Origin: Actinomycetes bacterium
GTDB lineage: Bacteria > Actinomycetota > Acidimicrobiia > Acidimicrobiales > UBA8190
Length of the DNA: 35,928 nt
Direction: 5' to 3'
NCBI GenBank assembly: GCA_021826725.1
Contig: JAKAYQ010000010.1
Coordinates: forward strand, 1-35,928
The stretch's first letter is position 1. The number at the start of each line of letters is the position of its first letter. Of the stretch, positions 190 through 24,829 are shown piece after piece. Below the pieces are notes generated by a model. That model was not told where the DNA came from. It saw nothing but the letters and a program-made list of their open reading frames with translations, and ran no database searches. The position numbers were made by a program, and so were the translations under genes.

Positions 190-380
190 GGACGAGGCGC
201 GGTACAGTGCGATCCGTAGCGCAGGGAACCCGGTGCGAGTCCGGGGCTGTCCCGCAACTGTGACCGGGGAGCCGACCCCACTGCTGGCCACGGCCCGATA
301 TGGGTGGGAAGGCCGGGGAAGGCGACGATCCGGGAGCCAGGAGACCTGCCTGCCCGAGAGATCGCTCGGACCACGCGAGG
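190..380 (+). promoter_or_regulatory. Cobalamin (AdoCbl) riboswitch
   Basis: Contains gcagggaacccggtgcgagtccggggctgtcccgcaactgtgaccgggga and the B12-box-like agccaggagacctgcc (335-350), then ccacgcgagga. It lies directly upstream of the cbiZ start at 387. Confidence 0.93.
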
Positions 381-386
381 ACGACC

Positions 387-1010
387 ATGGCGTTCGACAT
401 TCGTTGGAGGCGCGAAGCCGGCCGGAACCTGCCCGTGTTGGTGTGGCAGTGGCGCGAGCCGATGCGCACCATCGCCAGCGGCCCCCACAACGGCGGCATC
501 GGCCTGCGCCGGTGGGTCGTGAACGCCCAGGTTCCCCCCGCCTACGCTCGGCGCGACCCCGACCACCACCTGGGCAAGCTCGGCGTGTCCCTGGGACTTC
601 CCGGCCGGGGGGTGGGGATGCTGACGGCGGCCGACGTCCAGCACTACCGCTCGACCGTCGACGACGGCGTCGAGGTCGTCGCCACCGTCGGCCTGAGCCG
701 CCCGATCTCGGCCGCCGCCCCCGACGATCCACGGGCGCCCAGTCTGGCCGGCACCATCAACGTGGTAGCCGTCGTTCCCCAGCGCCTGTCGGACGCCGCC
801 CTGGTGAACGCCGTCGTCACGATGACCGAAGCGAAGGTGCAGGCACTGCGCGATGCCGGGGTTCCCGGGACCGGGACGGCTACCGACGCGGTGTGCGTCG
901 TCTGCCCTGACGACGGGCCGATCGTGGACTACGCGGGCCCCCGTTCGCGCTGGGGGGCGCGGCTGGCCCGCGCCATGCACGGCGCGGTGCTGGCCGGCGC
1001 GGCGCCGTGA
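387..1010 (+). CDS. cbiZ: Adenosylcobinamide amidohydrolase, CbiZ family
   Basis: [39 protein letters not shown]...[30 protein letters not shown] has CbiZ-like architecture (TDAV motif, YAG...G tail). First gene after the B12 riboswitch. Confidence 0.82.
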
Positions 1011-1600
1011 TCACCTTGGTGCTCGGGGGTGCCCGCTCGGGTAAGTCCACTGTGGCCGAACGCCTGGCCGCGGGTACCGGGCTGCCCGTCAGCTACCTGG
1101 CCACCGGAGCGGCCTCGGACCCCGACATGGCCGAACGGATCGCGGTGCATCGGGCCCGGCGGCCCGCCGGGTGGTCGACGGTCGAGTGCGGCACCGATCT
1201 GGCCGCCACCCTGACCCTGGTGCGGGGCACTGCGCTCGTCGATGCACTGGGCACGTGGCTGGCGCGCGCGCAGGACTTCGATGTCGATACCGGTGAGCTG
1301 TGCCGAGCGCTTGGAGCCCGCACCGATCCGACCATCGTGGTGTCCGAGGAGGTGGGGATGGGGGTCCATCCGGCGAGCGCGGCTGGCCGCCGGTTCCGCG
1401 ACGCGCTCGGCGCACTCAACCAGGCGGTCGCCGCCGTCGCCGACCAGGTGCTGTTGGTCGTGGCCGGACGCGTGCTCGCCATGCAGGCGTCACTGCCGGC
1501 GGCTGGCAGCCCGGCGAGCGACCCTCCGCGCACCACGGCAGGAGCCACCGCGACCCACGCGGCGAACGACTCTCCGGGCACCACGGCGCAGCATGTCTAG
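1007..1600 (+). CDS. cobU: Bifunctional adenosylcobinamide kinase / adenosylcobinamide-phosphate guanylyltransferase
   Basis: N-terminal [21 protein letters not shown] (CobU P-loop), [11 protein letters not shown] motif and [16 protein letters not shown] start overlaps the cbiZ stop (GTGA). Confidence 0.95.
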
Positions 1601-1614
1601 CGGGGTAGCAGCGC

Positions 1615-2490
1615 ATGCGTAGGGCGCTGGCCTTCCTGACGCCGATCGGTGGCGCTCGACCACCGGCGCCAGGCGCGCTCGCGTGGTTCGGCCCGATCGG
1701 CGCGCTCATCGGGCTCGCGCTCGGAGCGGTGTGGTGGGGCGCCGCGCACCTGTGGCCTCCTCCGGTGGCTGCCGCCGTAGTGGTCGCCGCCGATCTGGCC
1801 GTCACCGGTCTGCTGCACCTCGACGGCCTCGTCGACGCGGCCGACGGGCTCCTCCCGCACCTGAGCCGCAAGCAGCGGCTGGCGGTGATGCGCCAGCCCG
1901 ATGCCGGGGCGTTCGGCGTCGGAGTCGCCATCGCGGTGCTGCTCTTGCGGTGGGCGGCGCTGGCATCCCTACGCCCAGCCCCCCTGCTCCTGGCCGCCTT
2001 GTGGTGCCTGTCCCGAGCGGCGATGGCCGTCACCGCCGCTCGGCTGCCGTACGCGCGTGCCGACGGCGGGCTGGCGAGCGCCTTCCTGGCAGGCCTGAAG
2101 CCTGGGGCTGGGACCGGGAGCGGAGCCGACTGTGGCGCTGGGAGCGGAGCCGAAGGCGGGACCGGGACGGGGAGCGATGCCGACGTCGGGGCCCTGCCGG
2201 GGAGCGGGGCTGGGACCGGCACCGGGGTGGTCTCGAACACCAGCCACCGGCGGCACCCGGCGGTGGTGGCCTGGGGCCGGTTCCTCGCGATGGTCGGTGC
2301 CGCAGCAGCTCTTGCCGCGTCGTGGTCGCTGCCGGCGGGACCCGTGGCGGTGGCGGTGGCCGCCCTGGCGTTCGCCGCCGTGGTGTGGCTGGCGATGCGG
2401 CGCGTCGGCGGGTTCACCGGGGACGTCCTCGGTGCCGCCGGGCTGGTAGCCGAGAGCGTGGGCCTCATCACCGCGGTCGCCCGATGGTGA
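1615..2490 (+). CDS. cobS: Adenosylcobinamide-GDP ribazoletransferase (cobalamin synthase)
   Basis: MRRALAFLTPIGG, HLDGLVDAADGLL and MRQPDAGAFGVG are CobS motifs. Carries a Gly/Ala/Thr-rich internal insertion. Confidence 0.94.
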   Translation: MRRALAFLTPIGGARPPAPGALAWFGPIGALIGLALGAVWWGAAHLWPPPVAAAVVVAADLAVTGLLHLDGLVDAADGLLPHLSRKQRLAVMRQPDAGAFGVGVAIAVLLLRWAALASLRPAPLLLAALWCLSRAAMAVTAARLPYARADGGLASAFLAGLKPGAGTGSGADCGAGSGAEGGTGTGSDADVGALPGSGAGTGTGVVSNTSHRRHPAVVAWGRFLAMVGAAAALAASWSLPAGPVAVAVAALAFAAVVWLAMRRVGGFTGDVLGAAGLVAESVGLITAVARW

Positions 2491-3422
2491 TCCAGGGCCG
2501 CCGGTCCATCCCCGGCACAGCCCGGCGGCGGGCGCTGGCGACAGCGGCGGGGATCGTCGCCGACATGGCGCTCGGCGAACCGGCGGTGCGGCCGCACCCG
2601 GTCGCCGCCTTCGGGTCGCTCATGCGAGCGGTCGAGCGGCGCGCCTACCGGGACCAGCGGACGGCCGGCGTCGTGCACGCAGCAGTCGGCGCGACAACCG
2701 GGGCGGCGGCCGGGTTCGCGTTGGGCTCCACCACCTTGTCCACGTATGTCGCGGTTGCCGGCCGAGCCCTCCGGCACGCCGCGCTCGACGTCGGCCAGGC
2801 GCTGGGGAGCGGGGACCTCGACGCCGCCCGCGCCCTGCTGCCGGCGCTGGTCGGGCGGGACGCGACGGGCCTCGATGCCGGAGAGATCGCGCGAGCCGTC
2901 GTCGAGTCCGTGGCCGAGAACTCGGTGGACGCGGTGGTCGCCCCAGCCCTGTGGGGAGCGGCACTCGGCGGACCGGGCGCACTCGGCTACCGGGCGGTCA
3001 ACACCATGGATGCCTCGGTCGGGCACCGCAACCCTCGCTACCTGCGATACGGCTGGGCCAGCGCGCGGTTGGACGACGCCGCCAACCTGGTACCGGCCCG
3101 GGTCACCGCAGCCCTCGTCGCCGCGGTCCGCCCGGCGTCGGCCCGGGCCGTGTGGCGAGCAGTCCGCGTCGACGCCCCGGCGCATCCCTCGCCCAACGCC
3201 GGGGTGGCGGAAGCCGCGTTCGCCGCCGCGCTCGGCCTTTGTCTCGGCGGGGTGAACCGCTACGGCGACCGGGTCGACCACCGCCCGGCACTCGGAACAG
3301 GCCGGGCACCCGACGCCGACGACATCGTCCGGGCCGTCCGGCTGTCGCACGACGTCACCACCGCCCTGGTCGCAGCCCTGGTGCTTGCAGGAGCAGCCGG
3401 CGCGACAGGAGCAGCCAGATGA
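2484..3422 (+). CDS. cbiB: Adenosylcobinamide-phosphate synthase (CbiB/CobD)
   Basis: Motifs HPVAAFGSLM, VVESVAENSVDAVVAPALWGA, NTMDASVGHRNPRYLRYGWASARLDDAANLVPARVTA. Start overlaps the cobS stop (ATGGTGA). Confidence 0.95.
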   Translation: MVIQGRRSIPGTARRRALATAAGIVADMALGEPAVRPHPVAAFGSLMRAVERRAYRDQRTAGVVHAAVGATTGAAAGFALGSTTLSTYVAVAGRALRHAALDVGQALGSGDLDAARALLPALVGRDATGLDAGEIARAVVESVAENSVDAVVAPALWGAALGGPGALGYRAVNTMDASVGHRNPRYLRYGWASARLDDAANLVPARVTAALVAAVRPASARAVWRAVRVDAPAHPSPNAGVAEAAFAAALGLCLGGVNRYGDRVDHRPALGTGRAPDADDIVRAVRLSHDVTTALVAALVLAGAAGATGAAR

Positions 3423-4513
3423 GCCGGATGAGCATCCCGCGCGCGACCACGCGGCCCACTTCCCCGGCCACCACGGATCCCGGCCCGCCCGCCGGGTCAT
3501 GGCAGGCGACGGTGCCGCCCCCGGCACGCCACGGCGGGGACGGCGCCCGCGTGGCCGCTGCCCTCGGTCTCGATCCGGCAGACGTGCTCGACCTGTCGGC
3601 GTCGGTCAACCCGCTCGCACCCGATGTCGCCGTCGTCGCCGCCAGGCATCTCCAAAGCCTGCGGCGCTACCCGGACCCCACCGCTGCCGGCGATGCCCTG
3701 GCCGAGGTGATCGGGGTGGACCGTTCCCGGCTGCTGCTCACCAACGGCGGCGCCGAAGCCATCGCTCTGGTGGCCGCGGAGATCGGCGGGCACGTCGACG
3801 AGCCCGAGTTCGCGCTGCACCCACGCCGCGGCGCTCCACGCTGGCGGTCCAACCCCCACAACCCGACCGGCCTGCTCGCGCCGGCCGGCGAGCACGCGGC
3901 GGTGTGGGACGAAGCCTTCTACCCGCTGGCCACCGGCACCTGGACCCGGGGCGACCCGGACGCGGTGGTGGTCGGCTCGCTCACCAAGCTCCTGGCATGC
4001 CCCGGGCTGCGCCTGGGCTACGTCCTGGCCGACCCCGATCTGGTCGACCGCCTGCGTCGCCGGCAGCCGGGTTGGTCGGTGAGCGGCCTGGCCGCGGCGG
4101 CGCTTCCCGAGCTGCTCGCCACCGCCGACCTCCCCGGCTGGTCGGCCGGCATCGCCGAGCTGCGGGCCGAGCTGGCAGCGCTGCTCCACGCCCACGGGCT
4201 CGAGCCACTGGCGTCGGACGCGAACTTCGTGCTGTGCCGCCGGGCCACGGGCCTGCGCACCCGGCTCATTCCGCACGGCGTCGTCGTACGCGACTGCGCG
4301 ACGTTCGGCCTGCCCGACCACGCCAGGGTGGCGGTACCTGATGCGACCGGACTCGAACGCCTCCGCACCGCGCTCGAGCGGAGCGCTCCGCCAGGGACCG
4401 CACCGGTGCGGCGCTCGGTCCTGGCCACCGGCACCCGATCCGACGATCAGCCGGCCGTCACGACCGGTCCCGGCACGCCGCCGGGCTCGCGACCCGGACA
4501 GCACGGGCCGTGA
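3419..4513 (+). CDS. cobC: Class I/II PLP aminotransferase family, threonine-phosphate decarboxylase-like (CobC/CobD)
   Basis: HGGDGARVAAALGL...DLSASVNPLAP, SNPHNPTG, and PLP-lysine motif VVGSLTKLLACPGLRLGY. ATGA overlap with cbiB. Confidence 0.88.
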   Translation: MSRMSIPRATTRPTSPATTDPGPPAGSWQATVPPPARHGGDGARVAAALGLDPADVLDLSASVNPLAPDVAVVAARHLQSLRRYPDPTAAGDALAEVIGVDRSRLLLTNGGAEAIALVAAEIGGHVDEPEFALHPRRGAPRWRSNPHNPTGLLAPAGEHAAVWDEAFYPLATGTWTRGDPDAVVVGSLTKLLACPGLRLGYVLADPDLVDRLRRRQPGWSVSGLAAAALPELLATADLPGWSAGIAELRAELAALLHAHGLEPLASDANFVLCRRATGLRTRLIPHGVVVRDCATFGLPDHARVAVPDATGLERLRTALERSAPPGTAPVRRSVLATGTRSDDQPAVTTGPGTPPGSRPGQHGP

Positions 4514-6009
4514 AGGGCGGCCTGATGGTGTGCGGCACCGCCAGCGACGTCGGCAAGAGCCACGTCGTCACCGGCCTGTGCCGCCTGCTGGCCCGACGCG
4601 GCGTGCGGGTGGCGCCGTTCAAGGCGCAGAACATGGCCCTCAACTCGTACGTGACCCCGTCCGGGCACGAGATCGGGCGCGCCCAGGGAATCCAGGCCGT
4701 CGCCGCGGGGGTGGAGCCCGAGGTGGCGATGAACCCCATCCTGTTGAAGCCCACGGGTGAGCGGACCAGCCAGGTGGTGGTGCGCGGCGAGCCGGCAGGG
4801 CACCTCGACGCGCTGGAGTACCACGCCCGCAAGCCGGAGCTTCTGGGCACCGTGCTCGGCGCCTTGGCTGACCTCCGGGAGCGGTTCGACGTGGTGATCG
4901 TCGAAGGCGCCGGCAGCCCGGCGGAGATCAACCTGCTCGACCACGACATCGTCAACCTGCGCCTGGCCGCCGAAGCCGACCTGCCGGCGCTCGTCGTCGG
5001 CGACATCGATCGCGGCGGCGTGTTCGCCGCCCTCTACGGAACGGTCGCGCTGCTTCCCGACCGCTACCGCCGGCTGGTGCGGGGCTTCGTGATCAACAAA
5101 TTCCGCGGCGACCCCGCGCTGCTGGGCGACGGCCTCGCCGAACTGCAGCGACGCTGCGGGGTGCCGACCCTGGGCGTGCTCCCCTTCGTGCACGACGTCG
5201 CCCTCGACGCCGAGGACTCCCTGGCCCTCGGCGGCCTGCGGCCGCGTGCCACCGGCGCTCCCGTGGCCGACTCGATCGACGTGGCCGCGGTCCGACTTCC
5301 CCGGATCGCCAACTTCACCGATCTCGACGCCCTGGCCGTCGAGCCCGGTGTCACCGTCCGCCTGGTGGACGACCCCGGCGGCCTGGGCGACCCGGACCTG
5401 CTCATCCTGCCGGGCAGCAAGGCCACCGTCACGGACCTCGACTGGCTGCGGGGCCGGGGCTTCGACCGGGCCGTCGACGCCTGCAGGCAGGCCGGCACCA
5501 CCATTCTCGGGCTGTGCGCCGGCTACCAGATGCTCGGGCACCGGATCGTCGACGAGGTCGAATCCGGGCGCGGGGCGGTCGCCGGGCTCGGCCTGCTCGA
5601 CGTGGACACCGTGTTCGACCTCGCCAAGATCACGCGCCAGCGCCGGGGCACGGCCCTCGGGCAGCGGGTGTCGGGGTACGAGATCCACCACGGGCGAACC
5701 CGCTGCGGCCCGGGCGCGCAGCCCTGGATCACGCTCGACGACGCCGTCGGCGCCGACGACGAGGGGGCCCGTGCTCCTGACGACGACGGCGTGCTCGGGA
5801 CCAGCCTGCACGGCCTGTTCGAGGAGGATGCCTTCCGCGCCGCGTTCCTGGCCCGGGTGGCGCACCGGCGGTCCAAGCGTTTCGTGAGCGCCGGAGCATC
5901 GTTCGCGGCTGCCCGCCAGGCCCAGCTCGACCGGCTCGCCGACCTGCTCGAGTCACACCTCGACATGGCCGCCGTCGACCGGATCCTCGCCGAGGGAGCC
6001 CCACGATGA
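4510..6009 (+). CDS. cbiP: Cobyric acid synthase (glutamine-hydrolysing)
   Basis: LMVCGTASDVGKSHVVTGLCRLLARRGVRVAPFKAQNMALNSYVT; GATase motif TILGLCAGYQMLG; EIHHGRT. GTGA overlap with cobC. Confidence 0.97.
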   Translation: MKGGLMVCGTASDVGKSHVVTGLCRLLARRGVRVAPFKAQNMALNSYVTPSGHEIGRAQGIQAVAAGVEPEVAMNPILLKPTGERTSQVVVRGEPAGHLDALEYHARKPELLGTVLGALADLRERFDVVIVEGAGSPAEINLLDHDIVNLRLAAEADLPALVVGDIDRGGVFAALYGTVALLPDRYRRLVRGFVINKFRGDPALLGDGLAELQRRCGVPTLGVLPFVHDVALDAEDSLALGGLRPRATGAPVADSIDVAAVRLPRIANFTDLDALAVEPGVTVRLVDDPGGLGDPDLLILPGSKATVTDLDWLRGRGFDRAVDACRQAGTTILGLCAGYQMLGHRIVDEVESGRGAVAGLGLLDVDTVFDLAKITRQRRGTALGQRVSGYEIHHGRTRCGPGAQPWITLDDAVGADDEGARAPDDDGVLGTSLHGLFEEDAFRAAFLARVAHRRSKRFVSAGASFAAARQAQLDRLADLLESHLDMAAVDRILAEGAPR

Positions 6010-9000
6010 TCCTGCTGCTTTCCAACGCGGACACCGACATCCTGGCGGTGCGCTCCGTGCTCGAAGGCCTGCCCGAGGGCCTCGGCCCGGTCCGGGCCGC
6101 CAATCCGTCCACACTGGCCGGACCCCCGCCGCTCGACGACGTGGACGTGGTCCTGGTCCGCCTGCTCGGCGGGCGGCGGGCGTGGGAGGCGCCCTTCGAC
6201 GAGCTGCGGCGCCGCTGCATCGCCGAGGACATCCCCCTGCTGGCCTTCGCAGGCGAGGCGGCCCCCGACGCCGAGCTGACCGCCCTGTCCACGGCGCCGG
6301 CCGCCACGGTGGCCCAAGCCTTCGAGTACCTGGTGCACGGCGGCCTCGCCAACATCGAGGGGCTGCTGCGGTTTGTGGCCGACACCGTCCTCATGGGTGG
6401 GTTCGGCTTCGATGCCCCCGTGCCGGTACCGGCCACCGGGGTGTTCGGCGACCGCCACCTCGACCCGGGCCGGCCGACCGTGGGCATCGTCTTCTACCGG
6501 GCCCACCTGCTGTCGGGGAACACCGGTTTCGTCGACGACCTGGCCGAGGCGCTGAGCGCCCGCGGGGTGAACGCGCTGCCGGTGTACTGCTATTCGCTCC
6601 GACCCGGCCCCGACGGTGTCGTCGACGCGCTGGACCTCCTGGCCGACGCCGGGGTCGCCGCGGTCGTCACCACCGTGCTGGCCATGGGCTCGGCCGACGG
6701 GGACCAGTGGGACGCGTCGGCGCTCGCCGCCCTCGACGTCCCCGTCGTCCAGGCGGTCACGGCCACCGCGTCCGCCGCCACCTGGGCGCACAGCGCCGCC
6801 GGGCTCGGTCCGCTCGACGTGGCCATGGCGGTGGCCATCCCCGAGTTCGACGGCCGCATCGTGTCGGTGCCCTTCTCCTTCAAGGAGGTGGTCGACGACG
6901 GCGACGAGCTCGGCACTCCCGTCACCGCCTACCGGACGGTTGCCGATCGGGTCGACCGGGTGGCCGGCGTCGCCGCCCGCCTGGCCATGCTCGGGCGGGT
7001 CCCGCCAGCGCAGCGGCGGATCGCCATCGTGCTGTCCGCCTACCCCACCAAGCGCAGCCGGCTGGGCAACGCCGTCGCCCTCGACACCCCGGCCAGCGTC
7101 GTGGCGCTGCTGCACGAGCTGGCCGCGGCGGGCTACCGGGTGGACCGTGTCCCCGACGACGGCGACGCCCTCATGCACGAGCTGGCCGCCGGGTTCCCTG
7201 CCGACCAGGGTTCGGCGGAGGACGCCCCGGCGGCGGGATCCCTGCGCTGGGACGGGGAGGCCTACGCGCGATGCTTTGCCGCCCTGGACCCGGCACTTCG
7301 CGACCAGGTCGTCGGCGCGTGGGGAGACGCGCCCGGGTCAGTGTGGCGCGACGGCGACGACCTGGTGTTCCCGGGGATCGACCTGGGGGGCGTCCTCGTC
7401 GCCGTGCAGCCGCCACGCGGCTTCGGCGAGGACCCGGTGGCCGTCTACCACTCGCCCGACCTGCCACCGACGCACCACTACCTCGCCTTCTACCGCTGGC
7501 TCGACGAGGTATGGGGGGCGCATGCCGTCGTGCACGCCGGCAAGCACGGCACGCTCGAATGGCTGCCGGGCAAGGGGGTGGGCCTGTCGGCGGCCTGCGC
7601 ACCGGACGCCGTGCTCGGGGACCTGCCGCTCGTGTATCCCTTCGTCGTCAACGATCCCGGTGAGGGAACCCAGGCCAAGCGCCGGGCGCACGCGGTGATC
7701 GTCGACCACCTGCTTCCCCCCATGACCCGGGCCGACACGTACGACGACCTGGCCCGGCTCGAGACCCTGCTGGACGAGCACGCCCGCGTCGCCGCGCTCG
7801 ACCCCGACAAGCTCCCGGCCATCCGCGCCCAGGTCTGGGACCTGCTGGTGGAAGCCGAGATCCACCGGGACCTGGGCGTCGCCGACGCCCCGTCCGCCGA
7901 GGCGTTCGACGAGCTGGTCCTGCATGTCGACGGCTACCTCTGCGAGCTCAAGGACGCCCAGATCCGCGGGGGGCTGCACGTCCTGGGCCGCCAGCCTGAG
8001 GGCGAAGCCGAGCTCGACCTGGTGCTCGCCATCACGCGGCTGGCCCAAGGGCAGGTCCCGTCGCTGCGAGCCAGGCTCGACCCCGACGCCGGGCGGGCGG
8101 AGGTCGACCAGGTCGAGGCCGACAACCGGCGCACGCTGGCCGTGCTGCAGGCCGCCGGCTGGCAGACCGCGAGCACCGACCCCACCCTGCGCTGGGTGTG
8201 CGACACGCTGGTCCCCGCCCTCCACCGGACCGGCGACGAGATCGGCGGCGTGCTCCGGGCGCTCTCCGGCCGGCACGTCCCCGCCGGACCGAGCGGCGCC
8301 CCCACCCGCGGCATGGCCCACGTGCTGCCCACCGGGCGCAACTTCTATTCGGTGGACCCGAAGGCGGTGCCCTCCCCGCTGGCCTGGGAGGTGGGCCAGG
8401 CCCTGGCGGATGCCCTGATCGCCCGCCACGTCGCCGACGAAGGTACGGTGCCGGCCTGCGTGGGCTTGGTCGTCTGGGGCACCGCGGCGATGCGCACCAT
8501 GGGCGACGACATCGCCCAAGCCCTGGCGCTCGTGGGTGTGCGACCGTGCTGGCAAGCGGAGTCCGGACGGGTGACCGGCCTGGAGCTGATCGGCGACGAC
8601 GAGCTGGGCCGGCCTCGCGTCGACGTGACGCTGCGGATCTCAGGCTTCTTCCGCGACGCGTTCCCGCACGTGGTCCACCTGCTGGACGACGCGCTGGCGC
8701 TCGCTGGCTTCGACGACGATCCCCGCATCTTCGGCGCCAAGCCCGGCGCCTACGGATCGGGGATCCTTCCCCTGCTCGAGTCGCGCCACTGGCGCTCCGA
8801 CGCCGACCTCGCCGCGGTCTACGAAGCGTGGAGCGGCTGGTCGTACGGGCGGCGCGCCATGGGAGCGCCCGCCGCCGGCGCTATGCGACGGCGGTTCGCG
8901 GCCATTGACGTCGCAGTGAAGAACCAGGACAACCGCGAGCACGACATCTTCGACTCCGACGACTATCTCCAGGACCATGGCGGCATGATCGCCACCGTCC

Positions 9001-9433
9001 GGGCGCTCACCGGCCACCAGCCCAAGGCGTTCTTCGGAGACACCGCCAACCCGGCCCGGCCCCGGGTCCGCACCCTGGCCGAGGAAGCCGCCCGGGTGGT
9101 GCGCACCCGGGTGGTGAACCCCAAGTGGATCGCCGCCATGCAGCGCCACGGGTACAAGGGCGCGTTCGAGATGGCGGCAACGGTCGACTACCTGTTCGGC
9201 TACGACGCCACCGCGCACGTGGTGGAGGACTGGATGTACGAGCGCGTCACCCGCGCCTATGTGGCCGACCCGCAGGTCCGCGCCTTCTTCGCCCGGTCGA
9301 ACCCGTGGGCGTTGCGGTCGATCGCCGAGCGCTTGCTCGAGGCGAACGAGCGAGACCTGTGGGCGGCGTCCGCCGAGGCCCTGGCCACGCTCCGGGCCGC
9401 GCTGCTCGAGGCCGAGGGCTGGGAGGAGTCACG

Positions 9434-9437
<4 letters not shown>
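6006..9437 (+). CDS. cobN: Cobaltochelatase large subunit CobN
   Basis: 1143 aa with CobN/BchH motifs [59 protein letters not shown] and [25 protein letters not shown] overlap with cbiP. Confidence 0.97.
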
Positions 9438-11551
<2,114 letters not shown>

Positions 11552-11715
11552 CGAAACCGACCGACGAGGCCGTCGCCCCGCGACAAGGCCGACCGGCCGG
11601 CGGTCGCCCCGCGACGAGCCCGGGTCGTCCAGACCAGGCCGAGCCAAGCCCCGATGACTGAACCGGACCACCGCTGCCGCAGGGTCGGCGGCCGGCACCA
11701 CACAGGAGGAACCTC

Positions 11716-14325
11716 ATGAAGATCACGGCTGTGATCGAGCGGCGCGGCATCGAGCCGGTCCCGCTCGACGAGCGCAGGGGCAGCGCCCGCGGGCTGTTCT
11801 CGGTGTGGTTCGCTGCCAACGTGGGGATCCTGTCGGTCGTGTTCGGCGCTGTGCTGGCCAGCTTTGGGCTCGACTTCGGCCAGGCTGTCGCCGTCACCGC
11901 GGCTGCCACGACAGCGTCGTTCCTGCTCGTCGGGGCCGTGTCGGTAGCCGGGCAGCAATCCGGCATGCCCGCACTGGCCCTGTCCCGCCGGGCCATGGGA
12001 CGAGCGGGAAATGGGGTGGCCGCCGCGGTGAGCTGGGTGAGCGTGCTCGGGTGGGAGGTGGTGGCCTCGGTCGTCGGCGCCTGGGCCCTGGTGAGCGCGG
12101 CGCACGTCCTCCTCGGTGTGGCACCGGGGCCGGCGTCAGATACCGTCGCACTCGGCATCATGGTCGGTGCGTCGCTGGTCCTGGGGCTCCTGGGGCACGC
12201 CGCCATCGTGCGGTTCCAACACCTCGCCGCACTCGGGTTCGGTGCGCTCACCCTCGCGCTCGTGCCGATCATGCTGGTGCACGTCGACTGGTCACGTACG
12301 CTCTCGGGCCATCCCGCGTCACTCCGGACGATGCTGATGGCCGCCGGCATCATCGCAGCCGGGACCGGCATCAGCTGGGTAAACCTCGCTCCCGACTACA
12401 GCCGGTACCTCCCGAGATCGGAGCGTCCCCGCGCCATCGTCGGCTGGGTGACCGCAGGTGCCGCGCTGCCGACGATGGTCCTGGTCCTCACCGGCTACCT
12501 GCTGAGCACGCGGGTCCACGGCCTCGCCTCGACGCTCGACCCCATCGGACCGGTCGGGGCCGTCCTCCCGGCTTGGCTGGCCACTCCCTACCTGCTGACC
12601 GCAGCAGGAGGCATGCTGGCCGAGACCAACCTCGCCTGCTACTCCTCGGGCCTGACGCTGCTCGCGCTGGGGGTCCGGATCCGGAGGACGCGGACGGTGC
12701 TGGTCGATGCCGCCGTCGTCTGCTCGGCGGGCCTGTGGCTGATGATCGGCCGCTCGGGATTTCTCGGCCCCTTCGAGAGCTTCCTGGAGCTGCTGGCCGC
12801 CGGCCTCGCGGCGTGGGCCGGTGTGGTGCTCGCCGATCTCGGGCGGGCGCGCCGGGCTGCACGCGTCGCCGGCACCGGCTCTCCCGTCGGCGGCGCACGC
12901 ACCGCGTCCCCCGCTGGCGGCAACCGCACCGGCTTCCTTGCCGACGGCACCGGACGGGCCGTCGACGGTACCGGGCTGGCGGCGTTCACCGTCGGCGCTG
13001 CCCTCGCCCTGGCCACGACAGCGTCGCCGCTGTTCACGGGACCCTGGGCCCACGGGCTGGCCGGCGACGGAAGCTTCGGTTTCGTGCTCGGGCTCGGTAC
13101 GTCGATCACCATCGCCTGGACCGGGTGGAGAGCGGTCGACCGCCGAGCAGCCCGGCACGTCTGTGACCGGACCGCCGCGCCAAGCCGCCCGGAGATCGAC
13201 CCCCCGAGCCGCCCGGAGACTGAGGGTTCCGGCTCGACCCGGGTTGCAACCTCGCTCGCCCCCCGCTCACCAGCGCCGGCGCACGCTCCGGTCGCGTCGG
13301 CGCTCACGCCACGACCGCCCACCTCCGGATCAGCTCAGGTTGCGGCAGGCGCAGCGGCTGCGACGGCCCGGTGGGCACCGCCGCAGCGCCTGGTGCTCGT
13401 CGGGAGCATCCTGGTCGACGTGCTCGTCTACGTCGACGCGCTGCCCGAACGCGGCAGCGACGTGCTGGCAGGTGACCGCATGCTGTCGAGCGGCGGGGGG
13501 TTCAACGTCCTCACCGCGGCAGCGCGCCTGGGGCTCCCGGGTGCCTATGCCGGCCGGATCGGCACCGGCGCCTTCGGGCGCCAGGTGGCACGCGACCTCG
13601 AGGCCACCGGCATCCAGGCGCTCGTGCCACCGGCTGCCGGGGACGACACCGGGTTCACGGTGGGGATCGTCGAAGCGAGCGGGGAGCGGACGTTCCTCAC
13701 CGCGCCGGGCGTGGAGTCACGCCTCGACGAGACCACGCTGGGCACCGTTGGCCTTCGACCCGGCGATGCCGTCCACGTATCGGGGTACGACCTCATGTAC
13801 CCGATCTCGGGGCCTGCCATCGCCCGATGGCTGCACGGGCTCGCCCCCCGGCACCTGCTTTCCCTCGACCCCGGCCCGCTCGGCACGGCGTCCGACGACG
13901 CCATCGGCGGGCTCCTGCACCGAGTCGACGTGTTCACGCTGAACGAGCGCGAAGCCCTCCTGCGCTCAGGATGCGACCGGGCCGACGAGGCCGCCGCGGC
14001 GCTCGGCGCCCTCATCGCGCCAGGCGGGGTGGCAGTCGTGCGGGTCGGCCCGTCGGGCTGCTGGGTCGCGCAACCTGGCGCAGCACCGGTGCTCGTACCC
14101 GGTCATCGGGCCGACGTCATCGACACGACCGGGGCCGGCGACGTGCACACCGGTGCCGTGCTGGCCCGGCTGGCAGCCGGCGACAGCCCGCTGCAGGCGG
14201 CCCGGATCGCCAACGTGGCGGCCGCGCTCTCCACCGAGCACGCCGGAGGCGCTGCCGGACCTACCACAGCTGCCGTCGACGAGGCCCTGGCTCGGACCGA
14301 GGATGCTCCCACCGTCGTGCCGTAA
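11716..14325 (+). CDS. Fusion protein: NCS1/CodB-type nucleobase permease (N-term) + PfkB/ribokinase-family kinase (C-term)
   Basis: Strong SD (AGGAGG at 11704-11709) 6 nt before ATG. N-half is a multi-TM CodB-like protein (IERRGIEPVPLDERRGSARGLFSVWFAANVGILSVVFG...WVNLAPDYSRYLP). C-half from ~13385 is PfkB (LVGSILVDVLVYVDALPERGSDV...GGGFNVLTAAARLG...DTTGAGDVHTGAVLARLAAG). One uninterrupted frame. Confidence 0.88.
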   Translation: MKITAVIERRGIEPVPLDERRGSARGLFSVWFAANVGILSVVFGAVLASFGLDFGQAVAVTAAATTASFLLVGAVSVAGQQSGMPALALSRRAMGRAGNGVAAAVSWVSVLGWEVVASVVGAWALVSAAHVLLGVAPGPASDTVALGIMVGASLVLGLLGHAAIVRFQHLAALGFGALTLALVPIMLVHVDWSRTLSGHPASLRTMLMAAGIIAAGTGISWVNLAPDYSRYLPRSERPRAIVGWVTAGAALPTMVLVLTGYLLSTRVHGLASTLDPIGPVGAVLPAWLATPYLLTAAGGMLAETNLACYSSGLTLLALGVRIRRTRTVLVDAAVVCSAGLWLMIGRSGFLGPFESFLELLAAGLAAWAGVVLADLGRARRAARVAGTGSPVGGARTASPAGGNRTGFLADGTGRAVDGTGLAAFTVGAALALATTASPLFTGPWAHGLAGDGSFGFVLGLGTSITIAWTGWRAVDRRAARHVCDRTAAPSRPEIDPPSRPETEGSGSTRVATSLAPRSPAPAHAPVASALTPRPPTSGSAQVAAGAAAATARWAPPQRLVLVGSILVDVLVYVDALPERGSDVLAGDRMLSSGGGFNVLTAAARLGLPGAYAGRIGTGAFGRQVARDLEATGIQALVPPAAGDDTGFTVGIVEASGERTFLTAPGVESRLDETTLGTVGLRPGDAVHVSGYDLMYPISGPAIARWLHGLAPRHLLSLDPGPLGTASDDAIGGLLHRVDVFTLNEREALLRSGCDRADEAAAALGALIAPGGVAVVRVGPSGCWVAQPGAAPVLVPGHRADVIDTTGAGDVHTGAVLARLAAGDSPLQAARIANVAAALSTEHAGGAAGPTTAAVDEALARTEDAPTVVP

Positions 14326-14329
14326 CGGC

Positions 14330-14410
14330 ACTGGGACTGGGACTGGGACTGGGACTGGGACTGGGACTGGGACTGGGACTGGGACTGGGACTGGGACTGG
14401 GACTGGGACT
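14330..14410 (+). repeat. Hexanucleotide tandem array (ACTGGG)x13 plus a partial unit
   Basis: Perfect 6-bp periodicity 14330-14407, followed by imperfect act-gag. Begins 4 nt after the TAA of the fusion gene. Confidence 0.98.
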
Positions 14411-14509
14411 GAGCACGGATGTGGAACCGGGACCTGGAGCGGCGCTGGCGCCGACAAAGCGGCCCGCGCAGGACTTTCCTGCGTGGCGGCGACGCGACAT
14501 GATCATCCG

Positions 14510-15037
14510 ATGCGCCTGCTCGAGCGAACGAACGACCACGATGTCGCCTCCGCGCTGCTGCGCTTCACCCTCGGCCCGATGCTGATCGCGCACGGGGCGA
14601 ACAAGGTGGCCGGACCGGGCGGCCTGACGGGTACGACACGCTGGTTCTCGGACCTGGGACTGCAGCCGCCATGGCTGCATGCCCGACTGGCGGCCGGGAC
14701 CGAGATCGCCGCGGGCACGCTGATGACCGTCGGAGCGCTGGCACCCCTTCCCGAAGCGGCGGCCATCGGCCTGATGGCCACTGCCGCGGCGACGGACCAC
14801 CGCGGCAAGGGGTTCTTCGTGTTCAAGGGTGGGTGGGAGTACGTCGCCGTCGTCGGCGCCGCGGCAACCTGCCTCGCCACTCTTGGGCACGGCCGCTGGT
14901 CGCTCGACGCCAAATTCGGCAACCACCGACGTGGGCCCCGGACGGCCGCCGTTGCCGTCGCCGTCGGGCTGGCGAACACCGCCGCACTCCTGGCGGCCTG
15001 CTACCGGCCTGCTCCAGCGGAGGGCTCGGGCTCGTAG
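14510..15037 (+). CDS. DoxX family membrane protein
   Basis: ALLRFTLGPMLIAHGANKVAGPGGLTGTTRWFSDLGLQPPWLHARLAAGTEIAAGTLMTVGALAPL...GFFVFKGGWEYVAVVGAAA is typical of DoxX. Confidence 0.85.
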   Translation: MRLLERTNDHDVASALLRFTLGPMLIAHGANKVAGPGGLTGTTRWFSDLGLQPPWLHARLAAGTEIAAGTLMTVGALAPLPEAAAIGLMATAAATDHRGKGFFVFKGGWEYVAVVGAAATCLATLGHGRWSLDAKFGNHRRGPRTAAVAVAVGLANTAALLAACYRPAPAEGSGS

Positions 15038-19635: not shown

Positions 19636-20634
19636 TCACCGGCGGGCCCGCACTGGCCGGGTGGCCCATCCGGCGGGGGCGACGTCCGCCACGCCCGACG
19701 GGCCGGCCACGGTGTCGGAACGGGCTCGGGCGGTCCACACGTACGCCACCAGCGGCAGGGGGAGGGCCACGACGAGCAGCACCAGCGCGAAGGGGAGCGC
19801 TGCGGCCAGACCACTTTGCTGCAGGGTCACCCAGATCTGCATGGGCAGCCCGTAGGGGTGGTAGGCGATGATGATGACCGCGCCGAACGCGCCGATCGCC
19901 CGGGCCCACGCCATGGACAGGGCGCTGGCCAGTCCCGGTGCGGCGAGGGGCAGGGTGATGCGCCGGAAGGCGCGGGCCGGGGAGTCCCCGAGGAGCGCGG
20001 CATGCTCCTCGAGCTCGCGGTCGACGCCTGCGAACGCCGCCTCGGCGCCGAGCACGTAGTACGGAGCCGACTCGTAGGTCTCCGCCACCACCAGTGCGAA
20101 GAACGTGTTGGACGCCGACAGGTGCACGTGGGCGAGCCCCTGGCCGACGGGGGTGGCCGGCCCGGCCAGGAACACGAGGAGCAGGCCGATCACCAGTGGC
20201 GGCATCAGGAGTGGGACGAGCACGCCCGTCTCCCACGCCCGGGGTGCCGGCAGGCGTCCCCTCGCCATCGCCCAGGCCAGGGGTGTGCCGACGACGACCA
20301 GCACACCCAGGGACACGGCGCTCGCCTCGACCGACGTCACCAGCGGTTGGAGCGCACCGGGACCGGCCAGCGCTGCGCGCACCGTGCCGGGGGTCAGGTG
20401 GGCGAGAAGCGCACCGAGGGGGCCGAGAAGGACCAGCAGGACCGCGGCGGCACCGACCACACCGGTGACACCGGCGAAACGCAGCGAGACCCTTCGGTAC
20501 CCGATGTGAAGATTGTCGCCGGTTCCCGCACCGAGGCGCCCGGGCAGCGTGGCGGCGGCCAGGGGATCGGACCCGGGTCCGCCACGCACATCGGCCGTGG
20601 CGCCGTGCGCTTGTGGGCCAGAACGCTCCGTCAC
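19636..20634 (-). CDS. Tungstate/molybdate ABC transporter permease (WtpB/ModB-like)
   Basis: Multi-TM permease with EAA-loop-like EEHAALLGDSPARAFRRITLPLAAPGLASALSMAWARAIGAFGAVIIIAY. Confidence 0.92.
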   Translation of the reverse strand: MTERSGPQAHGATADVRGGPGSDPLAAATLPGRLGAGTGDNLHIGYRRVSLRFAGVTGVVGAAAVLLVLLGPLGALLAHLTPGTVRAALAGPGALQPLVTSVEASAVSLGVLVVVGTPLAWAMARGRLPAPRAWETGVLVPLLMPPLVIGLLLVFLAGPATPVGQGLAHVHLSASNTFFALVVAETYESAPYYVLGAEAAFAGVDRELEEHAALLGDSPARAFRRITLPLAAPGLASALSMAWARAIGAFGAVIIIAYHPYGLPMQIWVTLQQSGLAAALPFALVLLVVALPLPLVAYVWTARARSDTVAGPSGVADVAPAGWATRPVRARR

Positions 20635-21731
20635 CCGCTGGCCCGGACCGCGGCCAGGACGGAGGCCGGCACGCTCGAGCGCGTCCCCACCACAGTCGCC
20701 GGCAGCAGGGTGAACCCGGCAGCCGCATACGCCTGTCGGCCGGCGGCCGAGAGCTGATAGGCGACGAACGCAGTGGCGGCAGCGGCGTCGTCCGCCGCCT
20801 GCGCCGGCTCGCGGACGGTGGCGATGTCGATCACCAGTGGGGCGCCGTGGACCGTCGTGGCCGCCTGGGTGGCCGTCGCCGGCACCACCAGGCTCGCCTT
20901 CGCGTACCCCGATGCGTCGGCAGGGTCACCAAGGTCGACGGCTGCCGGCAAGGTCAGGTAGTGCAGGTGGAGCTGGACCGCCTGGGAGCGGAAGGCGCTG
21001 GCGGCATCGAGCTGGCCGGCTTGCAGGTGGGCGTCGAGAGAAGTCTCGGAGAAGATCTGGCCGGTGGTGCCGGTCCCACCGGTGGTCACGCCGGGTCCAA
21101 GGATCTGCTCGACGATACCGGCGGGCAGGCCCAGCGTTCGCTGAGCGAGCTCGACCATCATCACGAACGCCTGTCCTTGCGGATCAGTCGCTGGGTTCGT
21201 ACGACCCAGGCGGAACCCCGGTGCGGCCATGGCATCGAACGCGTCCGCCAGCGGCAGGCGTCCGGCCGCCACGCGTTCGAAGGTGGTGCCGTACGTGCCG
21301 TTCGGGTTGTACGCGATGACCAACGGGCTGGCCGCGAATTGCACGTACCACGGCGAGCGACGGCTCCCCACGATGGCGACCGGGGCGGAGCCGACGCTCT
21401 CGAACACCCCCGGCGCGATCTCGCCGGAGGCGATCTCGTGCGCCAGTCCCAGCGACCCGCCGCCCCGGCCCGTGTACGTGTAGCCGGTGGCGTGCGCAAA
21501 GCCGGGCCCGACGACCTTGTCGTCGACAGCCAGGAGCGACCCGGCGAAGGCGACGTCCGCCGTGCCGGACCGGTGTGCGACGACCACGCCGGCAGATGTC
21601 GACGTGCCGGCTGCACCATCCGACCTGGCGGACGTGCACGCGCCCACGATCACGCCGACGAAAGCGACAGCGACGACAGCGCGGCGTCGCACGGGGAACC
21701 CGCTCCACCGGGCCTGCATGTGGGTCTTCAT
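20631..21731 (-). CDS. Tungstate/molybdate-binding lipoprotein (WtpA-like extracellular solute-binding protein)
   Basis: Signal peptide with lipobox (VGVIVGAC), SPWYVQFAASPLVIAYNPNGTYG and FRLGRTNPATDPQGQAFVMMVELA, matching WtpA-like architecture. ATGA overlap with the permease. Confidence 0.88.
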   Translation of the reverse strand: MKTHMQARWSGFPVRRRAVVAVAFVGVIVGACTSARSDGAAGTSTSAGVVVAHRSGTADVAFAGSLLAVDDKVVGPGFAHATGYTYTGRGGGSLGLAHEIASGEIAPGVFESVGSAPVAIVGSRRSPWYVQFAASPLVIAYNPNGTYGTTFERVAAGRLPLADAFDAMAAPGFRLGRTNPATDPQGQAFVMMVELAQRTLGLPAGIVEQILGPGVTTGGTGTTGQIFSETSLDAHLQAGQLDAASAFRSQAVQLHLHYLTLPAAVDLGDPADASGYAKASLVVPATATQAATTVHGAPLVIDIATVREPAQAADDAAAATAFVAYQLSAAGRQAYAAAGFTLLPATVVGTRSSVPASVLAAVRASG

Positions 21732-24580: not shown

Positions 24581-24730
24581 TCGACGAGAGGATCCCACCC
24601 CTCGTGAGCCCCACACCGGCCGGCGAAACCCGGATGCGTGGTCGTCGCCGGTCGCGAGTCACGGACCGTGAGGGGATCCACCGCCGTGGGGCGCGCGCCA
24701 GTCCGTGCGCTCGACGACACCAGCGCCGCA

Positions 24731-24779
24731 CCGCACACCGCACACCGCACACCGCACACCGCACACCGCACACCGCACA
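24731..24779. repeat. Heptanucleotide tandem array (CCGCACA)x7
   Basis: Perfect 7-bp periodicity in the intergenic region between divergent genes. Confidence 0.97.
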
Positions 24780-24829
24780 CCACGATCCCCGTTGCACACG
24801 TGGGTTCTCGGTAGGCTCGGCCGATCATT

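Follow-up and report, generated by a model that had tools for sequence, protein, structure and literature searches.

A permease–kinase fusion of the NCS1 and PfkB families beside cobalamin genes in Acidimicrobiales: a candidate importer and kinase of lower-ligand nucleosides

The lower-ligand nucleotide alpha-ribazole-5'-phosphate, a substrate of CobS, is made by CobT (NaMN:DMB phosphoribosyltransferase, PF02277) from free base and NaMN. In Firmicutes without cobT, including Listeria, Geobacillus and Lactobacillus coryniformis, two reports describe a transporter, CblT, and a kinase, CblS, that feed alpha-ribazole phosphate to CobS (PMC6461909, PMC6167548). The locus described here resembles this system in pairing a transporter with a kinase in cobamide makers that apparently lack cobT, with a product predicted to pass to CobS, but differs in that CblT and CblS are two separate proteins of Firmicutes, whereas here an NCS1 permease and a PfkB kinase are fused, and in Actinobacteria. 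The descriptions of CblT and CblS consulted do not present them as NCS1 or PfkB proteins, and the Pfam matches of the fusion are to these two families only. With CobT the fusion would share the end product, although it would reach it from a nucleoside. CblT and CblS probably have folds that differ from those of NCS1 and PfkB proteins. Homologous permeases and kinases, encoded by adjacent genes with a nucleoside-type logic, are found in GntR–ADP-ribosylglycohydrolase–NCS1–PfkB cassettes, but these include the hydrolase, have no B12 genes or riboswitch and were never fused in the cases seen; the comparable yegTUV set of E. coli, which has a different transporter, is without established function (PMC10819704).

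In the window, that is, the whole stretch of 35,928 nucleotides analysed, the fusion gene lies downstream of a B12 operon headed by a cobalamin riboswitch that ends about 40 nt 5' of the cbiZ start codon. The features of the locus are as follows.

223–347, plus strand: cobalamin riboswitch aptamer RF00174 (93.2 bits, E 1.3e-21, gathering score 31.5)
387–1010, plus strand: cbiZ, adenosylcobinamide amidohydrolase, corrinoid remodelling (Pfam CbiZ, 179.7 bits)
1007–1600, plus strand: cobU, cobinamide kinase/guanylyltransferase (Pfam CobU, 163.6 bits)
1615–2490, plus strand: cobS, cobalamin-5'-phosphate synthase, which consumes alpha-ribazole-5'-phosphate (Pfam CobS, 126.5 bits)
2487–4513, bounds approximate, plus strand: cbiB-like gene, then cobD/cobC-like aminotransferase (ORF translations)
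4510–6009, plus strand: cobQ, cobyric acid synthase (Pfam GATase_3 and CbiA)
6006–9437, plus strand: cobN, cobaltochelatase large subunit (Pfam CobN-Mg_chel, 1221 bits)
9434–11551, start approximate, plus strand: ChlID-type chelatase subunit, AAA + VWA (ORF translation)
11704–11709, plus strand: Shine-Dalgarno AGGAGG, six bases 5' of the fusion ATG
11716–14325, plus strand: NCS1 permease–PfkB kinase fusion, 869 aa, ATG at 11716, TAA at 14323–14325
11755–12858, plus strand: NCS1 permease core, residues 14–381 (Pfam Transp_cyt_pur, PF02133)
12958–13125, plus strand: last hydrophobic pair, common to all five fused copies (hydropathy and alignment)
13153–13374, plus strand: hypervariable Pro/Ala/Ser linker, residues about 480–553 (alignment of five copies)
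13387–14256, plus strand: PfkB kinase domain, residues 558–847 (PF00294; ribokinase-like PDB relatives)
13492–13506, plus strand: GGGFN motif (sequence)
14131–14142, plus strand: GAGD motif, catalytic Asp and anion hole (sequence)

No stop or frameshift interrupts 11716–14325, and both domains exceed their Pfam cut-offs (PF02133, 127.6 versus 23.5 bits; PF00294, 120.6 versus 25.8 bits, with GAGD present), identifying an NCS1 permease and a PfkB kinase. The preliminary description had proposed a single polypeptide of permease, linker and PfkB kinase behind a strong Shine-Dalgarno sequence, with GAGD and GGGFN motifs in the kinase, and the 869-codon frame, the Pfam scores and the motif positions bear this out. 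All of the more specific NCBIfam models matched fall below cut-off, among them the ribokinase equivalog TIGR02152 (97.8 versus 299.65 bits), the NCS1 nucleobase:cation symporter subfamily TIGR00800 (73.5 versus 353) and the CytX hydroxymethylpyrimidine (HMP) transporter TIGR02358 (50 versus 310), and the fusion has no match to PF02277. Among the solved relatives of the kinase, ribokinases and sugar kinases predominate, and the structures nearest to it in both sequence and fold are those of ribokinase (5zwy, 4x8f, 1rkd/1rka), but the GGKGAN loop of ribokinase is GGGFN in the fusion. Kinase alignment identifies [G/A]FN after GG as a signature of the whole PfkB subgroup, not peculiar to the fusion, while GAGD or AAGD is conserved across the aligned kinases. 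AlphaFold models of permease and kinase (mean pLDDT 37 and 53) were both too poor for use; searched by fold against the PDB, the low-confidence kinase model gave nothing beyond generic matches to ribokinase, ketohexokinase and sugar kinases (rmsd 6–10 Å), and the permease had no PDB sequence match at E 1e-3. NCS1 permeases usually have a cytoplasmic C terminus, and the hydropathy of the fusion and its conserved final hydrophobic pair would fit this topology.

Elsewhere in the window, 13.7 perfect copies of the 6-bp unit ACTGGG (14330–14411) begin four bases past the fusion stop codon, and the other perfect short-unit array holds 7.6 copies of the 7-bp unit CACCGCA (24729–24781). The minus strand at 19636–21731 encodes an ABC-type permease and a substrate-binding protein whose translations resemble molybdate/tungstate uptake genes.

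The fusion occurs in five copies in three genomes of the genus: once in that of the window (G000; a draft of 313 contigs, 84% complete) and twice each in G008 and G009, all three being metagenome-assembled genomes (MAGs) of 82–84% completeness. A search for the two-domain architecture across genomes, which the preliminary description had suggested, thus found it in two further members of the genus. The complete additional copies (G009:C234, 834 aa; G008:C391, 832 aa; G008:C68, 942 aa) are roughly 62–70% identical to the window copy, and the remaining one (G009:C93, the same 7601-base contig, JAJZLP010000337, as locus L003) has an unbroken frame through the permease and linker into the kinase, 87–93% identical to the window, before the contig ends inside the kinase. 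Linker length and composition vary widely among the five copies, always in frame, while permease and kinase are conserved in the alignment; between the window and L003 the permease core has a dN/dS of 0.23, the sequenced kinase start shows five synonymous and no nonsynonymous changes, and the sole indel, of 54 nt, is in frame. The linker thus behaves as a coding tether. That assembly or sequencing error joined two genes is an explanation to which two-gene versions elsewhere lend some colour, but it is rejected as wholly improbable, since five copies from three genomes, on different contigs and with different sequences, maintain the frame through a linker of variable length. The earlier concern that resequencing might reveal a stop or frameshift in the linker is answered in the same way, by a frame open in the window and kept in the other copies, and the possibility that homologs are always two genes fails within the genus, although it is true elsewhere, where the pair consists of two adjacent genes.

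Cobalamin genes lie beside all four complete fusion copies and beside L003. At G008:C391 (L019), chlID, a NicO-family cobalt/nickel transporter (NiCoT) and the fusion follow one another with 4-nt overlaps, succeeded by cobB and a cobL-like gene. Both G008:C68 and G009:C234 have a cobK-like gene convergent with the fusion, and G008:C68 also has a cobI-like gene divergent from it. In the window no terminator-like site was found in 11400–14700, but because a gap of 164 nt separates the fusion from the upstream cluster, co-transcription with the B12 genes is inferred. The presence of cbiZ in the cluster fits ligand exchange. G008 has two cobU–cobS–cbiB–cobN sets (L067, L068) besides its two fusion copies (L019, L020), which suggests that its B12 clusters are duplicated or that the bin is mixed (4% contamination).

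Outside the window's own genome, a close full permease–kinase pair was found in one of 39 sampled genomes of the order, G055, which belongs to another family and is 93% complete. In G055 the permease and the PfkB kinase have a gene each, with 12 nt between them, and about 35 nt separate the end of a cobalamin riboswitch (105 bits) from the likely permease start, a GTG at L066 7459 behind GGAGG; the neighbouring genes are not B12 genes. In phylogenetic trees the G055 kinase forms one group with the fused kinases (support 94/94), but its permease groups with proteobacterial and lactobacillar permeases, apart from the fused ones (99/97), so that recruitment of the permease to B12 may have been repeated, or genes exchanged. 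Within the window's family, G010 has a cobalamin riboswitch (103.5 bits; L021 7269–7462, minus strand) just under 40 nt before a lone NCS1 permease (5699–7231), placed in the tree, albeit on a long branch, as the sister of the fused permeases (100/98). G010 contains cobT and has no kinase adjacent to this permease, a candidate B12-regulated importer of a base or nucleoside in its own right. A further 12 NCS1 loci from the family and the order, Curtobacterium and seven plasmid-borne relatives all showed no cobalamin riboswitch.

The distribution of cobT, searched for by HMM (PF02277), was compared over 34 cobS-bearing genomes. It is present in 25 of the 30 without pair or fusion, and the four with one (G000, G008, G009 and G055) yielded no cobT, an association with one-sided Fisher values, worked by hand, of 126/46376 = 0.003 by genome and 21/465 = 0.045 by genus, and weakened by the relatedness of the genomes and by draft assemblies. 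The preliminary description's observation that the window has no cobT is correct and extends to the assembled window genome (84% complete). Since the three fusion genomes are incomplete MAGs, cobT could sit in gaps; it is absent from the intact cobU–cobS–cbiB stretches of the window, L067 and L068, and in the relatives G002, G003, G004, G005 and G015 it lies within a few kb of cobS. Five other cobS-bearing genomes (G022, G033, G047, G017 and G006) have neither cobT nor an NCS1–PfkB pair; one of them, G022, is assembled as a single contig at 99%, so that the lower ligand may be activated there in some other way. G009, without detectable cobT, encodes a true BluB (G009:C323; L047, L070; 227 bits, over cut-off), so that at least this member of the genus may make DMB itself. 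A pure salvage route has no need of BluB, and the gene may be a contaminant, may accompany a cobT hidden in a gap, or may go with a route that serves recycling after CbiZ.

Taken together, the cobalamin riboswitch, the position among B12 genes, the missing cobT and the transporter-plus-PfkB pairing favour import and 5'-phosphorylation of a lower-ligand nucleoside, which is probable because the hosts appear to be without CobT. Judged from sequence, the system is probably a B12-regulated importer and kinase making alpha-ribazole-5'-phosphate from an imported alpha-ribazole-type nucleoside, its candidate substrate, as a presumably non-homologous counterpart of Firmicute CblT/CblS. Several features expected of an alpha-ribazole salvage system working like CblT/CblS are present here: transporter and kinase together, in one polypeptide or in the two adjacent genes of G055; cobS with no cobT detected, in G000, G008 and G009 (82–84% complete) and G055 (93%); and putative B12-responsive control, by the riboswitches predicted in the window and in G055. 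The NCS1 domain would import a base attached to alpha-D-ribose, and the PfkB domain, expected to be cytoplasmic, would phosphorylate its 5'-OH, trapping the nucleoside as alpha-ribazole-5'-phosphate; CobS would then join this to adenosylcobinamide-GDP from CobU, and the fusion would thereby stand in for CobT. Substrate, reaction and any benefit of physical coupling are deduced from context. The transport-plus-kinase logic of the preliminary description is supported, and alpha-ribazole, there called speculative, has become the best-supported substrate through the riboswitches, the B12 context of the fused copies and the absence of cobT in two lineages. Against it stand the five other cobS-bearing genomes without cobT or pair, BluB in G009 and the grouping of the G055 permease; moreover, in G010 the permease behind a riboswitch has no kinase next to it and coexists with cobT, so that the permease may carry a free base.

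Beyond the order, where sampling is thin, permease and kinase are adjacent genes in Curtobacterium (1-nt overlap, TGATG), in Paraburkholderia, Plesiomonas and lactobacilli, where they accompany an ADP-ribosylglycohydrolase and, in Paraburkholderia, a GntR regulator, and, on an ORF reading of unannotated records, in Caballeronia and Photobacterium; the Rhizobium version has an ABC transporter in place of the NCS1 permease. As none of the unfused pairs in these six groups has a B12 context, the forms linked to B12 appear to be a specialised offshoot of a cassette that handles ribosides, and the association with ADP-ribosylglycohydrolase makes another riboside the probable ancestral substrate. 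G008 and G009 have no such hydrolase, which agrees with a kinase whose substrate is the uncleaved nucleoside. In L. plantarum, a plasmid-borne ADP-ribosylglycohydrolase–NCS1–PfkB cassette (L051 2667–8218) adjoins genes for an isochorismatase-family hydrolase and a nicotinate phosphoribosyltransferase, which hints that the unfused cassettes handle a riboside related to nicotinamide or ADP-ribose.

These relatives also bear on the competing explanations. The fusion might play the same B12 role for a different lower-ligand nucleoside, a purine or other benzimidazole riboside, so that a cobamide other than the DMB form is made or remodelled. Every B12 link of the system applies equally to such a ligand, nucleobase-like compounds are the best-known cargo of NCS1 permeases, and the cbiZ heading the cluster allows ligand exchange; BluB, however, points to DMB use in G009, and the low-confidence kinase model offers no pocket support, so that we regard this reading as unlikely. 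Alternatively, a widespread cassette for ordinary nucleoside or ribose salvage may have landed by chance in B12 clusters, with the fusion a lineage accident, as the unfused pairs of several genera and the predominance of ribokinases and sugar kinases among solved kinase relatives might suggest. The repeated placement among B12 genes, the 4-nt overlaps in L019 and the lack in G008 and G009 of the usual partner hydrolase make this quite unlikely, and pure chance neighbourhood is further disfavoured by two other lineages in which a cobalamin riboswitch lies immediately 5' of the permease.

Supply of another B12 precursor, such as nicotinate or nicotinamide riboside converted to the mononucleotide used by CobT-type enzymes, would agree with the neighbours of the L. 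plantarum plasmid cassette and with the yeast NCS1-family protein that carries nicotinamide riboside, but CobT, the consumer of that product in the pathway, was not found in the fusion genomes, and we consider this improbable. HMP salvage for thiamine, which the preliminary description had held to be equally live, has receded to a very faint prospect: CytX-type HMP carriers do belong to the NCS1 family, but the CytX match is far below its cut-off, the kinase matches PF00294 with no ThiD-type match, and no TPP riboswitch was found where a cobalamin riboswitch is present.

In the open-licence literature searched, no paper was found that reports an NCS1–PfkB fusion or an NCS1 permease preceded by a cobalamin riboswitch; a 'cytosine permease' of C. 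difficile is listed among T-box genes. A secondary transporter fused to a kinase that would trap its cargo is an unusual architecture, and the fusion is likely to be a functional counterpart of CblT/CblS assembled from other protein families. The wider proposition, to which we assign a slightly better than even chance, is that Actinobacteria possess an undescribed riboswitch-controlled lower-ligand salvage route in which a fused NCS1–PfkB transport-and-phosphorylate protein replaced CobT. If so, a gap in B12 biosynthesis would be filled for cobS-bearing actinobacteria without cobT, and alpha-ribazole would gain a candidate NCS1 carrier and a candidate PfkB kinase in addition to the known pair, CblT/CblS, described mainly from Firmicutes. 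Exchange of alpha-ribazole within marine communities has been proposed (PMC9296465), and the fusion would provide an annotation marker for organisms dependent on lower-ligand nucleosides shed by their neighbours.
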